Notes under the pieces: generated by a model
What the model saw: only the letters and a program-made list of their open reading frames with translations
Told to the model about the DNA's origin: nothing
Databases searched by the model: none
Made by a program: the position numbers and the translations under genes
Part shown: positions 6,572 to 21,547 of the stretch, one piece after another
How the letters are laid out: every line of letters begins with the position of its first letter
Position numbering within the stretch: position 1 is the first letter of the stretch
From: Bacteroidota bacterium
Lineage (GTDB): Bacteria; Bacteroidota; Bacteroidia; Chitinophagales; Chitinophagaceae
Direction of reading: 5' to 3'
Length of the DNA: 46,246 nt
Assembly: GCA_030706605.1 (NCBI GenBank)
Contig: JAUZOE010000033.1
Location: 1 to 46,246 of the forward strand

Positions 6572-6575
6572 TTTT

Positions 6576-6608
6576 CAAAGATACATTGCAGAATCAATTA
6601 TATACAAA
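6576..6608 (-). promoter_or_regulatory. Bacteroidota-type promoter of acyP, leaderless geometry
   Basis: On the minus strand, TTTG (6605-6608) and TATCTTTG (6576-6583) are separated by 21 nt, matching the -33/-7 consensus. Only four bases separate the TTTG from the acyP ATG, so transcription should begin at or next to the start codon. Confidence 0.8.
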
Positions 6609-6742
6609 TTGCAAAACAACGTTTTGTACTAATAAAAAGTATTTATACTGATTTATTTATAGTAATAATACCATTAATCTCTTTCGTTAATTTACTTTCC
6701 AGGCAGTAAATACATTAGTTGTAAAATTAGGCAGTACTGCTC

Positions 6743-6773
6743 TTGCGCAGGGTAGCTGCTCTCCCTATCTTTG
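6743..6773 (+). promoter_or_regulatory. Promoter of RNA unit A
   Basis: TTG (6743-6745) and a perfect TATCTTTG (6766-6773) are 20 nt apart, the Bacteroidota -33/-7 arrangement. GCAGTACTGC (6731-6740) just upstream and GCAGGGTAGCTGC between the two boxes are GCAG-n-CTGC elements conserved in all units and could be operators. Confidence 0.8.
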
Positions 6774-6778
6774 TTACA

Positions 6779-6896
6779 GAAGTTGATTGATGTTCAACAA
6801 ACATTAATCAAAAATCCAAATCCATTGAAAAGAACCATTTCCCAATCCAGGAAAAACCATATTAAATCCGATATCAGTCAACTTCTATTTTTTTTG
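6779..6896 (+). ncRNA. Predicted small RNA, unit A (107 nt plus U tract)
   Basis: The predicted 5' end, six bases after TATCTTTG, begins GAAGTTGATTGAT, which pairs over 13 bp (one G-U) with ATCAGTCAACTTC ending at 6885. The pairing is followed by a T-rich tract (TATTTTTTTT, 6886-6895). The 5' strand can instead form a local 11-bp hairpin (TTGATTGATGT with ACATTAATCAA, loop TCAACA), so the two folds exclude each other. A small TTTCC/GGAAA hairpin lies inside. No coding frame is conserved. The family is unknown to me; transcription is inferred from the promoter. Confidence 0.6.
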
Positions 6897-7035
6897 AATT
6901 CAATGCCTTAGAAAAATATTAATCCCGATGAAAACCAACCGGTAAAACGGTATCCAATCTATCCAAGAAAAATCTAAAACCCAGATTTAAGTATTTAAAA
7001 AACTTCTGCATGCTTTTGCAGGAGTTTTTTATTTT
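6897..7035 (+). other. Distal structured segment of unit A with mini-ORF and terminator
   Basis: After the U tract come a conserved linker and ATG AAA ACC AAC CGG TAA (6928-6945, MKTNR). An ACCG/CGGT hairpin overlaps the mini-ORF end, then an AAATCT/AGATTT hairpin, then an intrinsic terminator with stem AAAAAACTTCTGCA (6997-7010) and TGCAGGAGTTTTTT (7017-7030). The same order recurs in units B and C with different stem sequences. Confidence 0.6.
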
Positions 7036-7150
7036 AAACCATATTCTATGCGATCAATATACAAAAAAGGTAGTTTTACGATTACACTTTATCGTTAATT
7101 TACTAATCAGACAGTAAATACATTAGTTGTAAAATTAGGCAGTACTGCTC

Positions 7151-7181
7151 TTGCGCAGGGTAGCTGCTCTCCCTATCTTTG
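7151..7181 (+). promoter_or_regulatory. Promoter of RNA unit B
   Basis: TTG (7151-7153), 20 nt spacer and TATCTTTG (7174-7181), identical in design to unit A, with the same GCAG-n-CTGC elements. Confidence 0.8.
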
Positions 7182-7186
7182 TTCCA

Positions 7187-7301
7187 GAAGTTGATTGATG
7201 TTCAACAAACATTAATCAAAAATCCAAATCCATTGAAAAGAACCGTTTCCCGATCCAGGAAAAACCATATTAAATCCGATATCAGTCAACTTCTTTTTTT
7301 T
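7187..7301 (+). ncRNA. Predicted small RNA, unit B (107 nt plus U tract)
   Basis: Runs from GAAGTTGATTGAT (7187) to CAACTTC (7293), exactly 107 nt as in units A and C, followed by eight T. The end-to-end stem and competing 5' hairpin are conserved. Substitutions relative to A are few and mostly in loops, for example within the CCCAATCC/CCCGATCC loop of the TTTCC/GGAAA hairpin. Confidence 0.6.
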
Positions 7302-7448
7302 GAATTCAATGCCTTAGAAAAATATTAATCCCAATGAAAACCAGGTTATGAAAATAACCAACAAAGTTTAAACCTGAAAAACCATAAAACCCCAGGATTA
7401 AAGCATTACAAAAGCCTCTGCAATAACATGCGGAGGCTTTTTTTTAAG
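7302..7448 (+). other. Distal structured segment of unit B with mini-ORF and terminator
   Basis: ATG AAA ACC AGG TTA TGA (7334-7351, MKTRL) overlaps a hairpin GGTTAT-GAAA-ATAACC. A CCTG/CAGG hairpin follows, then the terminator stem AAAAGCCTCTGC (7410-7421) and GCGGAGGCTTTT (7430-7441) with a T tract. Stem sequences differ from unit A throughout while pairing is kept. Confidence 0.6.
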
Positions 7449-7560
7449 CTATATTGCCAGTAATTAATATGAAGGTGAAGTAGTTTTACGATTACACTTA
7501 ATCGTTAATTTACTAATCACAGAGTAAATACAGTAGTTACAAAATTAAGCAGTACTGCTC

Positions 7561-7591
7561 TTGCGCAGGGTAGCTGCTGTTTATATCTTTG
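7561..7591 (+). promoter_or_regulatory. Promoter of RNA unit C
   Basis: TTG (7561-7563), 20 nt spacer and TATCTTTG (7584-7591). The spacer differs from A and B at its end (GTTTA instead of CTCCC), but both boxes and their distance are unchanged. Confidence 0.8.
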
Positions 7592-7596
7592 TTACA

Positions 7597-7711
7597 GAAG
7601 TTGATTGATGTTCAACAAGCATTAATCAAAAATCCAAATCCATTGAAAAGAACCGTTTCCCAATCCAGGAAAAACCAAACAAAATTCGATATCAGTCAAC
7701 TTCTTTTTTTT
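7597..7711 (+). ncRNA. Predicted small RNA, unit C (107 nt plus U tract)
   Basis: From GAAGTTGATTGAT (7597) to CAACTTC (7703), again 107 nt, followed by nine T. The competing hairpin has AGCATTAATCAA in place of AACATTAATCAA, which weakens its loop side but leaves the main pairing. Confidence 0.6.
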
Positions 7712-7853
7712 TAATTCAATACCTGTAGAAAAATATCATCCGAATGAAAACCGGCCATTAACTGGTCAGAAATTTAAACCTGAAAAACCAAACAAACCCC
7801 AGGATTAAATTATCAAAAAACTTCCCTGTTAATTATAGGGAAGTTTTTTATAT
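7712..7853 (+). other. Distal structured segment of unit C with mini-ORF and terminator
   Basis: ATG AAA ACC GGC CAT TAA (7744-7761, MKTGH) overlaps a GGCCA/TGGTC hairpin. Then comes a longer AATTTAA-CCTG/CAGG-TTAAATT hairpin and a perfect 13-bp terminator stem AAAAAACTTCCCT (7815-7827) and AGGGAAGTTTTTT (7837-7849). Confidence 0.6.
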
Positions 7854-8039
7854 CATATTATCTGCAAATAGTTCAAAATAAGAAGCCCCGCTTTATATTT
7901 ATCCCGATGATAGTAATGCCATTTATATAAATGCGATTGTATAACTTAACTTCCAAATAATAATCGGTCATTTCATATTTGTTCTTTATAACTTTACGAA
8001 GAACATTTTAAAGTATCCATACATTTAAAATTAATTTAT

Positions 8040-8402
8040 ATGATTGAAATAATTAAAGGGGTTCCAGAGCATGTTGCAGCATTCAATGCTACAGGAAAAA
8101 TCACCGAAGATGATTATATAAATATCATAAACCCACTTGTAGATAAGATTGATAAGGATTTTGGGAGAATAAACTATTTACTTGTTTTAAACACTTCATT
8201 GAGCAACTATAGTATTGGTGCGTGGATTAAAGATATTCTTTTAGGTTTTAAATATTTGTCAAAATGGAACAAACTTGCCATCGTTTCCAAAAGTAAAAAC
8301 ATAAAAGATTTTACCGATTTTTTTGGAAACCTGATTCCTCCCAAAACAAAAGGATTTATGATGGAGGAAATAGAAGCAGCCAAGACCTGGGTTTCAGAAT
8401 AA
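8040..8402 (+). CDS. STAS/SpoIIAA-like protein (DUF3478 type)
   Basis: A 120-residue cytosolic protein with the pattern of the SpoIIAA-like STAS/SEC14 fold: an opening 'G.P..V.AF.A.GKIT.EDY..I..P.VD', a central hydrophobic strand YLLVLNT, W-I-K-D and KLAIVS.S, and a C-terminal EIEAAKTWV. Proteins of this family are widespread small cytosolic proteins of unclear role, possibly lipid or ligand binding. It is monocistronic, 187 bp after the last terminator of the RNA array and 109 bp before the DnaJ-like gene. A specific function cannot be read out. Confidence 0.8.
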   Translation: MIEIIKGVPEHVAAFNATGKITEDDYINIINPLVDKIDKDFGRINYLLVLNTSLSNYSIGAWIKDILLGFKYLSKWNKLAIVSKSKNIKDFTDFFGNLIPPKTKGFMMEEIEAAKTWVSE

Positions 8403-8511
8403 ATTTATAAAACCCCTGGTGCACTTTATGTGAACTATTATTTATTTAAACCAGCTGCGTTATTTTAATATCTCTTAATTTTATTAAATATTTTAAAACT
8501 AAAATCAGAAA

Positions 8512-9429
8512 ATGGATTTTGTAGACTATTATAAAACACTGGGTGTCCCAAAAAACGCATCGGCAGATGATATAAAAAAAGCATATAGAAAACTAGCCAG
8601 GAAACTTCATCCAGATGTGAACCCAAATGATAAAGAAGCACATAAAAAATTTCAACAAATAAATGAAGCCAATGAAGTATTAAGCGATCCTGAAAAAAGA
8701 AAAAAGTATGATCAATATGGCGAGAACTGGAAACATGCCGATCAGTATGAACAAGCACGCCAACAACAAGATCAACAGGGTTTTGGCAGAGGCGGATTCG
8801 GGAGTCAAGGCTTTGGCGGTGGAGAATACACTTATTCTTCCGGCGACCAGGATGACTTCTCAGACTTTTTTGAGTCACTTTTTGGAGGTTCAGGAAGCAG
8901 AAGAAGCCAGACAAAATACAGGGGCCAGGACTTTAATGCAGAACTTCAGTTATTATTATCAGAAACGTATAACACGCATAAAAGGACCATAACAATTAAT
9001 GGAAAAAATGTAAGAGTAACCATTCCTGCCGGAGTAGAAAACGGGCAAAAACTAAAATTAAAGGGTTACGGCGGCCCGGGAACAAATGGCGGCCCTAATG
9101 GAGATTTATACATCACATTTAACATTAAAAACGATACCAATTTGAAACGCGTGGGAAATGATATTTATAAAACTGAAGATATAGATCTATATACCGCCTT
9201 GCTTGGTGGAGAAAAAACAATTGATACAATGAGTGGTAAAATAAAATTAAAAGTAAATCCTGAAACTCAAAACGGCACTAAGATCAGGCTGAAAGGAAAG
9301 GGATTCCCGGTTTATAAAAAAGAAGGACAATTTGGAGATCTTTACATTACCTGGAATGTGAAATTACCTACTAATCTGACCGAAAAACAAAAGGAATTAT
9401 TTACTGAACTTTCAAAATTATCAACTTAA
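8512..9429 (+). CDS. cbpA: DnaJ-class co-chaperone, CbpA type
   Basis: A 305-residue J-domain protein that stimulates the ATPase of DnaK. The J domain occupies residues 1-70 with H33-P34-D35. A Gly/Phe/Gln-rich linker spans about 80-130 ([17 protein letters not shown]). Two beta-rich C-terminal substrate-binding domains follow. There is no CxxCxGxG zinc-finger block, which separates it from DnaJ proper and makes it CbpA-like. The next gene starts 10 bp downstream and encodes a CbpM-like modulator, an arrangement known from cbpAM in Proteobacteria. Confidence 0.93.
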
Positions 9430-9439
9430 ATTTTTTGAT

Positions 9440-9727
9440 ATGGAACCCAACGAATTAATACCGGTTAATGATTTTTGCGTATATCATAATATTGAATATT
9501 CATTCATCAGTTCATTAGAAAATTCAGGATTGATAAGTGTTACATCAGTTCAGAAAACATCCTATATCCCTGCAGATGAAATGCAAAAACTCGAAAAATT
9601 TGTACGGTTACATTATGATCTTGATATTAACCTGGAAGGATTAGAAACTATTAATCATCTTTTGGAAAAAATAGAAGAGATGCAAATGGAAATTTTGAAG
9701 CTGCAGAATAGCGTAATTGCTGATTAA
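9440..9727 (+). CDS. cbpM: CbpM-like chaperone modulator
   Basis: A 95-residue MerR-like helix-turn-helix protein with a C-terminal coiled coil (GLETINHLLEKIEEMQMEIL). In enterobacteria CbpM binds the CbpA J domain and inhibits it. The start lies 10 bp after the cbpA stop, so the two are translated from one mRNA. The stop (9727) abuts the convergent permease gene end (9728) with no spacer. Confidence 0.82.
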   Translation: MEPNELIPVNDFCVYHNIEYSFISSLENSGLISVTSVQKTSYIPADEMQKLEKFVRLHYDLDINLEGLETINHLLEKIEEMQMEILKLQNSVIAD

Positions 9728-21211: not shown

Positions 21212-21327
21212 AAATACCGTACCCTAAAAGGGATTTTATTTTTAGTTAATAAAAAAATAGAAAACAAATGTAAACCAAATAAACTAAAATGGATTTCCGG
21301 AATTTATTATGGGGGAAGCAAAAAAAA

Positions 21328-21425
21328 CCGGCAAGTTACTTACATCGCACCGCTCAACCGCATACCCTTGCTATCTTCCGATCCTGGGGGAGTTCTGTAG
21401 GAGCTGGCCGTATAAGACTTGCCGG
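21328..21425 (-). ncRNA. ffs: Signal recognition particle RNA, small bacterial type
   Basis: On the minus strand a 98-nt segment begins and ends with the complementary CCGGCAAG and CTTGCCGG, and is followed by seven T, so the closing stem doubles as terminator. In the middle is CAGGATCGGAAGATAGCA, which matches the SRP domain IV hairpin of E. coli (CAGGTCCGGAAGGAAGCA): the GGAA tetraloop is kept and the adjacent stem changes from UCC/GGA to AUC/GAU, a compensated change. It binds Ffh for membrane protein targeting. End positions are set from the outer stem. Confidence 0.92.
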
Positions 21426-21547
21426 GTGCAAATATAAGGATTGAATCAAGAATTAAGAATTGTTAATTGAAAATAAAATCAGGTTGATCATTTTTTAAAA
21501 GGCTAACTCATTTATTGTAAATCAATAATATTCATAAAAATGATACA

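Follow-up and report, generated by a model that had tools for sequence, protein, structure and literature searches.

The three tandem units in the window, by which we mean the whole 46,246-nucleotide stretch of DNA analysed here (contig C27 in a genome assembly of 71 contigs and 4.27 Mb), are, as judged from sequence, copies of a small RNA family that is absent from the Rfam library and that recurs in one bacterial family, the Chitinophagaceae. Expression of the RNA appears to be under the positive control of a sensor and its regulator. As to its function, the explanation that we favour, with somewhat less than even confidence, is that of a multi-copy RNA of about 260 nt under two-component control which would titrate an RNA-binding protein in the manner of the Gac/Rsm system, with other partners.

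The preliminary description of this DNA had listed three copies 408 and 410 bp apart, each with its own promoter, an invariant element behind it, a T tract at constant distance and a second intrinsic terminator. The spacing is confirmed by ungapped 300-nt copies that start at 6620, 7028 and 7438, the outer two being 78% and 85% identical to the middle one, and the alignment of the three extends over promoter and terminator. The promoter core GCANTNNTGCTCTTG-N20-TANNTTTG is present in each unit with zero mismatches, and the invariant element CAGAAGTTGATTGAT indeed follows it, starting at 6777, 7185 and 7595. The early T tract was also found at the place named for it, directly after ATCAGTCAACTTC, which is the pairing partner of the 5' GAAGTTGATTGAT, and each unit does end in a second intrinsic terminator, a hairpin followed by a T run (Table 1). 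The stems of these later terminators vary in sequence among the three copies, with the pairing retained. Of the two terminators the later is the stronger, and the early T tract completes a folded domain, so that a transcript of about 260 nt is probable.

Table 1. Features of the three units in the window and the two response regulator genes of the same genome (locus handles precede positions outside the window).
Feature	Position	Strand	Basis
Unit 1, dyads of the regulator type (two)	6660-6673, 6684-6697	+	symmetrised matrix; training set excludes the window's genus
Unit 1, core promoter	6731..6773	+	perfect match to family promoter core
Unit 1, 5' domain with 13-bp closing stem, then U tract	6777..6890	+	covariance model, 86.1 bits
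Unit 1, tail	6891..7036	+	intrinsic terminator ~6998-7036, hairpin -15.8 kcal/mol and T run
Unit 2, dyads (two)	7068-7081, 7092-7105	+	same matrix as unit 1
Unit 2, core promoter	7139..7181	+	perfect match to family promoter core
Unit 2, 5' domain	7185..7298	+	covariance model, 88.0 bits; unit used to train the model
Unit 2, tail and terminator (~7410-7445)	7299..7445	+	hairpin -20.0 kcal/mol and T run
Unit 3, dyads (two)	7478-7491, 7502-7515	+	same matrix as unit 1
Unit 3, core promoter	7549..7591	+	perfect match to family promoter core
Unit 3, 5' domain	7595..7708	+	covariance model, 86.3 bits; unit used to train the model
Unit 3, tail and terminator (~7816-7849)	7709..7849	+	hairpin -17.3 kcal/mol and T run
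RR1, own genome	L304:6103-6783		
RR2, own genome	L305:9674-10339		

The units had been taken for paralogous small RNAs rather than protein genes, and the computations support this proposal. Other genera, too, keep the promoter and the stem that closes the 5' domain. There is no open reading frame of at least 80 aa within 6572-8039, and a coding origin was rejected on this ground. It had further been stated that the units could not be matched to a named family, and a search of the window against Rfam 15 gave indeed no match to them at the gathering thresholds. Seven loci, six with relatives and one with the regulator genes, gave no match at the gathering cut-off either. The sub-threshold candidates (L10 leader, PyrR, leader peptides and others), 20 matches at E ≤ 5, were all far under the curated cut-offs and were rejected. 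The one Rfam match listed in the window is a small SRP RNA (RF04183, 87.9 bits) at 21325-21431 of the minus strand. Among the open-licence articles searched, no paper was recognised as describing this Chitinophagaceae RNA.

Concerning the surroundings, a link of the RNA to the neighbouring STAS-like gene was rejected, as such a neighbour is not recurrent beside the RNA in the loci examined. At 8512-9727 the window also encodes a protein of the DnaJ type and, after it, a small MerR_2 protein, a pair that we take to be reminiscent of CbpA/CbpM.

The three units are real, but the list of them was incomplete. DNA similarity reveals nine copies in the same genome, that is, the three of the window and six more on contigs C1 (two), C5 (three) and C28 (one), those on C1 and C5 reaching contig ends, and the covariance model recovers the same nine. 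This model was built on 57 sequences, consisting of 55 unit rows and two of the three window units. Among the matches listed for the seed pattern, 83 of 129 had a 3' partner within 330 nt, the other 46 being units cut off at a contig end, units whose partner was not recognised, or chance matches; removal of near-identical units left 59, also among the matches listed, from which the long-loop L040, L044, L054 and L111 were left out. A search beyond the window with a covariance model, as the preliminary description had proposed, gave matches in 53 of 147 Chitinophagaceae genomes and 33 of 92 genera under strict filters, with 1-10 copies per RNA-bearing genome. DNA similarity, which uses a different query, gave matches in 21 of 59 genomes (own genome included) and 4 of 39 genera. 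The corresponding numbers for the model are 16 of 148 genomes in a sample of the order and 3 of 247 in a sample of the phylum, samples that overlap with each other and with that of the family, and among the matches listed all of these genomes lie within the Chitinophagaceae. Since the unit recurs nine times in the genome and across the bacterial family, the three copies are more than a chance resemblance.

With laxer filters, six of nine re-searched genomes gave a match at E ≤ 1. The weak matches in G104 and G090 were judged by eye to be chance-like and were rejected, while G101, G113, G169 and G177 have apparent diverged members, also by eye, and were excluded from the counts. These four genomes carry the regulator discussed below, and their matches (E 0.006-0.44) show by eye a like promoter and UCC repeats. 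Given the strict filters and these four genomes, the model undercounts the family. In two of the diverged loci, L324 and L326, which come from two genomes of one genus, promoter and repeats are kept and the closing stem is not recognisable by eye. L322 keeps the GTTGATTGA core of the 5' element, and L323, from G177, keeps both stem and core and has no U tract. The 5' domain of L323 is followed by some 300 nt of UCC/GAAAAACC repeats, a stretch much longer than in the window's units. A viral origin was also considered and rejected, as the nine pattern matches in IMG/VR all lack the 3' partner strand.

The family RNA consists of a stem-closed 5' domain, a body and tail that are poor in G and contain [A/G]UCC repeatedly, and a terminator. 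Its context and dyads were analysed in 80 hand-picked (not random) stretches from 34 of the 53 RNA-bearing genomes. The fetched loci gave 116 model matches, of which the 17 weakest, all repeating on the opposite strand a place matched before, were dropped; the 99 kept copies form 97 unique rows, and 96 of them enter the promoter counts, three being skipped.

The closing stem, called P1, has 13 bp in the window's units, where the 5' GAAGTTGATTGAT pairs with ATCAGTCAACTTC ca 80 nt downstream. Over the 97 unique rows, 99.1% of the cells are paired, compared to 97.9% after shuffling, and changes on both sides of a pair occur in 18 cells compared to 4.0, a number reached by none of 500 shuffles. 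These changes, mostly from U-A to C-G at the inner end of the stem, are confined to two pairs, and 176 of the 500 shuffles reach two. As the alignment was fitted to P1 and the seed pattern fixed part of the stem, we regard the covariation support for P1 as moderate. A local hairpin, P2, would compete with P1 for the 5' strand; it is paired in 84.6% of the cells (82.6% shuffled), with both-side changes in 24 cells (5.5 shuffled) and three pairs (2.2 shuffled). The near-invariant stem core AGUUGAUUGA suggests that the stem has a second role.

We now consider the promoter. When the whole genome is scanned for the core with up to three mismatches, 14 places are found, and the seven perfect matches are all at RNA units. 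The core of the RNA on C28 has three mismatches, as have six non-RNA places, and the reversed pattern gives no match in this genome at the same tolerance. Over the 96 unique promoters the conserved blocks are TA-N2-TTTG, a TGCTCTTG-like block and AAAA, and the TANNTTTG element is conserved across the family. Further upstream, conserved blocks are found at about -84 to -73 and -66 to -55.

From the outer region (positions -86 to -73 of 75 promoters, with the window's genus held out) a symmetrised dyad matrix was made, with the consensus TCGTAAATTTACGA. At a score of at least 7.0, sites are present in 84 of the 96 promoters, namely 66 of the 75 training and 18 of the 21 held-out ones, with centres near -79, -102 and -124, thus ca 22 bp apart. 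The average is 1.25 dyads per promoter compared to 0.06 in shuffles; like the motif statistics given below, these numbers count related copies as separate. It is important to point out that the -79 site is the training site of the matrix. Away from this position, a further dyad is found in 52 of the 75 promoters used for training and in 10 of the 21 held out. Positions 6601-8040 of the window contain six sites, with 0.18 in shuffles. In 156 kb from the held-out genus, 17 of 26 dyads scoring at least 8.0 lie in RNA promoters, which make up 2.7% of the bases (0.7 expected), and in the training loci the same threshold places 75 of 123 dyads there (3.4 expected).

A source of the predicted regulation is offered by the gene context. 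The RNA recurs in two settings, one between cysteine-synthase-like and BtuF-like genes (named from sequence, with a crude ORF caller), and the other divergent from the gene of a NarL/LuxR-type response regulator, which is the case for 25 of the 99 copies. L221, L254 and L257 each contain two regulator-RNA pairs within a single locus, which suggests that regulator and RNA have been duplicated as a module. In the own genome there are two paralogous regulators, RR1 and RR2, both with the Response_reg and GerE domains, and no RNA copy was recognised beside either of them. RR1 was rejected as an adjacent regulator in this genome, since L304 gives no model match up to E 5 and no dyads, the count for the region between RR1 and infC being zero. 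Near RR2 there are a HisKA_3 histidine kinase and a third regulator of the Response_reg/GerE type. The intergenic region between RR2 and C7, the gene that opens the kinase operon, has five dyads where 0.14 are expected, and upstream of RR2 in G016, which is of the same genus as the window, there are two (0.14 expected). Other genera carry the RNA at the position matching this gap between RR2 and the kinase operon.

Two side observations can be made at L305. Between RR2 and the kinase operon, 9289-9400 (minus strand) gives a 17.4-bit model match with E 0.15, which could be a decayed copy or chance. In addition, the kinase operon beside RR2 encodes two small proteins without a Pfam match (7817-8947, minus strand), relatives of which recur beside the RNA in other genera; they are possible accessory parts of the sensor.

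As read from the search tables, 61 of the 147 genomes have RR1, at E below 1e-82 in 59 of them and as fragments in G116 and G163. RR1 occurs in all 53 RNA-bearing genomes, and the 86 genomes without RR1 have no strict RNA match; this comparison takes the two 147-genome samples as identical (the listed handles agree). Shared ancestry of one clade could yield much of this co-occurrence. Taking dyads, context and co-occurrence together, the predicted control of the RNA by a response regulator is in our view well supported at the level of sequence, and the informative partner of the units is this response-regulator system elsewhere in the genome, rather than the STAS-like neighbour.

We turn next to the body of the RNA. 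In the family as a whole the inner domain has 25.4% C and 10.5% G, with UCCA occurring 272 times (81.7 expected) and ATCCAA 123 times (21.2 expected), and in the 160 nt past it ATCCA occurs 126 times (30.1 expected). The mean density over 96 units is 12.0 UCC per 300 nt, compared to 8.1 in shuffled sequences and to 1.7 for GGA. The commonest spacings of UCC pairs are 6 and 7 nt, found 94 and 116 times where 21 and 20 are expected, and UCC is unpaired with a probability of 0.73 against 0.54 for the average base, the corresponding shuffled values being 0.68 and 0.59. The signal is weak in the window's own units: [A/G]UCC occurs 7, 5 and 4 times in units 1-3, compared to 2.7, 2.1 and 2.7 in shuffles, counts that 2, 17 and 130 of 500 shuffles attain. 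Bare UCC is near expectation with 8, 6 and 6 compared to 6.1, 4.8 and 5.9, and lies far below the 12.0 per 300 nt that the family averages. The interpretation as titration thus rests on the family and not on the three copies in the window.

As for the 3' end, a strict filter finds a downstream terminator-like hairpin in 50 of 96 units, compared to 16 of 98 shuffled tails, and the terminators of all three window units are clear. By eye, the tails of L130, L133, L138 and L043 contain a recurrent hairpin-like segment resembling TATGCYGTAAAAAGCGATGATGGC, possibly a further module of repeats.

CsrA and Hfq are the best known among the RNA-binding proteins that act as global regulators. CsrA (PF02599) was found in none of the 147 Chitinophagaceae genomes, with E. 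coli, B. subtilis and T. maritima positive as controls. Hfq was above the cut-off in none of the 147, with three weak sub-threshold matches and a control set in which 5 of 14 genomes were positive. To our knowledge, broad post-transcriptional control in such bacteria is largely an open question.

We infer from these features the following mechanism. A NarL/LuxR-type response regulator, RR1, RR2 or both, would bind the upstream TCGTAAATTTACGA dyads and activate the -33/-7 promoter, so that the RNA is transcribed. The G-poor and largely unpaired body and tail would then present the [A/G]UCC motifs, often paired 6-7 nt apart, and the most likely effect of these repeats would be the titration of an RNA-binding protein other than CsrA and Hfq. 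The mRNAs under the control of this protein would thereby be freed, and the strength of the response would be set by the RNA copy number.

Other explanations have to be weighed against this one, the most serious being that the units are regulator-controlled sibling RNAs similar to csRNAs and Qrr, with the invariant 5' GAAGUUGAUUGAU or the UCCA repeats base-pairing with target mRNAs. Sequence conservation of the 5' strand and of its partner is higher than pairing alone would require, and the P1 and P2 alternatives share this strand, such that it could be exposed or hidden. The weakness of the UCC motif in the window's units points in the same direction, and FopS, csRNA and Qrr provide precedents. 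However, L324 and L326 retain repeats and promoter and not the 5' element (L322 and L323 do keep its GTTGATTGA core), a seed made of a single short motif repeated many times would be unusual, and none of the 147 genomes has Hfq above the cut-off. We consider base pairing unlikely on balance. The composition of the inner domain brings up a further option, namely that the C-rich, G-poor and unstructured body is an array for binding Rho, giving either a Rho-dependent end or a Rho decoy. Repeated pyrimidine-C steps, as found here, resemble rut sites. The motif [A/G]UCCA[A/G] and its preferred pair spacing are, however, more specific than rut sites need, and the window's units end in intrinsic terminators, which makes this option improbable.

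If the units were instead leader or attenuator RNAs of nearby genes, with the two terminators as alternatives, one would understand why one synteny type places the RNA between two same-strand genes and why the stem, with a U tract after it, has the look of an attenuator. This is difficult to combine with three consecutive units in the window that are each strongly terminated and have no ORF of at least 80 aa between them, or with the 37 of 96 nearest downstream ORFs (crude ORF caller) that lie on the opposite strand, and we find it quite improbable. The tandem arrays, some of them at contig ends, and the variable copy number would also be expected if the repeat had spread selfishly or neutrally and had no role in regulation. 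Here, the recovery of the unit by the model in 33 genera, the retention of promoter and dyads, and syntenic positions that recur in loci from 34 of the 53 genomes leave hardly any likelihood to such an origin.

Titration by a two-component-controlled RNA hence remains the preferred explanation. A more far-reaching version of it, in which the decoy RNA would sequester an undescribed UCC-recognising protein as part of a global post-transcriptional switch that arose independently of CsrA/Rsm, is in our judgement doubtful; if true, it would amount to an independent invention of the Gac/Rsm logic. With a conserved RNA, a probable regulator, a probable operator and a repeated motif usable as bait in hand, the question of post-transcriptional control in these bacteria becomes testable.

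It is instructive to compare the RNA with known systems. CrcZ-type Hfq decoys carry A-rich repeats in unstructured RNA. The present family likewise has repeats in unstructured RNA, but it occurs in a set of 147 genomes where Hfq does not exceed the curated cut-off. The csRNAs are controlled by CiaR and pair with mRNAs. In Streptococcus their copy number is described as 2-6, with a distal/tandem arrangement, and the Qrr RNAs of Vibrio are described in the same source as multi-copy siblings under the response regulator LuxO that pair with mRNAs (PMC4211561). The units studied here are similarly multi-copy sibling RNAs with predicted response-regulator control, but they are longer, have the repeated UCC, belong to another phylum and match no Rfam family.

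The nearest multi-copy family that we found described in Bacteroidota, among the open-licence articles searched, is FopS. FopS/GibS of Bacteroides is reported to be a 14-member paralogous family with sigma-ABfr promoters, associated with RbpB, an RNA-binding protein that prefers single-stranded regions; FopS RNAs have ca 65-70 nt and a 5' seed, and the word 'tandem' is not used in the main text (PMC11697453). Both are paralogous multi-copy RNA families in Bacteroidota. The present one is set apart from FopS, with its R1/R1' seed, by the length of ca 260 nt, the tandem arrangement, the upstream dyad and the repeated UCC.

The closest functional parallel would be Gac/Rsm. There, the LuxR-type regulator GacA acts through a dyad upstream of the promoter, and the sibling RNAs RsmX/Y/Z carry copies of a short single-stranded motif. 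A LuxR-type regulator (here a predicted one), an upstream dyad and sibling RNAs with a repeated short motif are features that the present system has in common with it (GacA, RsmX/Y/Z; Csr). In contrast, the repeated motif here is UCC and not GGA, the promoter is of the Bacteroidota type, no CsrA/RsmA homologue was found in the 147 genomes, and the scarcity of GGA does not give the repeated GGA in loops. With no CsrA and few GGA, the units are thus best filed as a new RNA family that would work like Gac/Rsm, rather than as a member of it.
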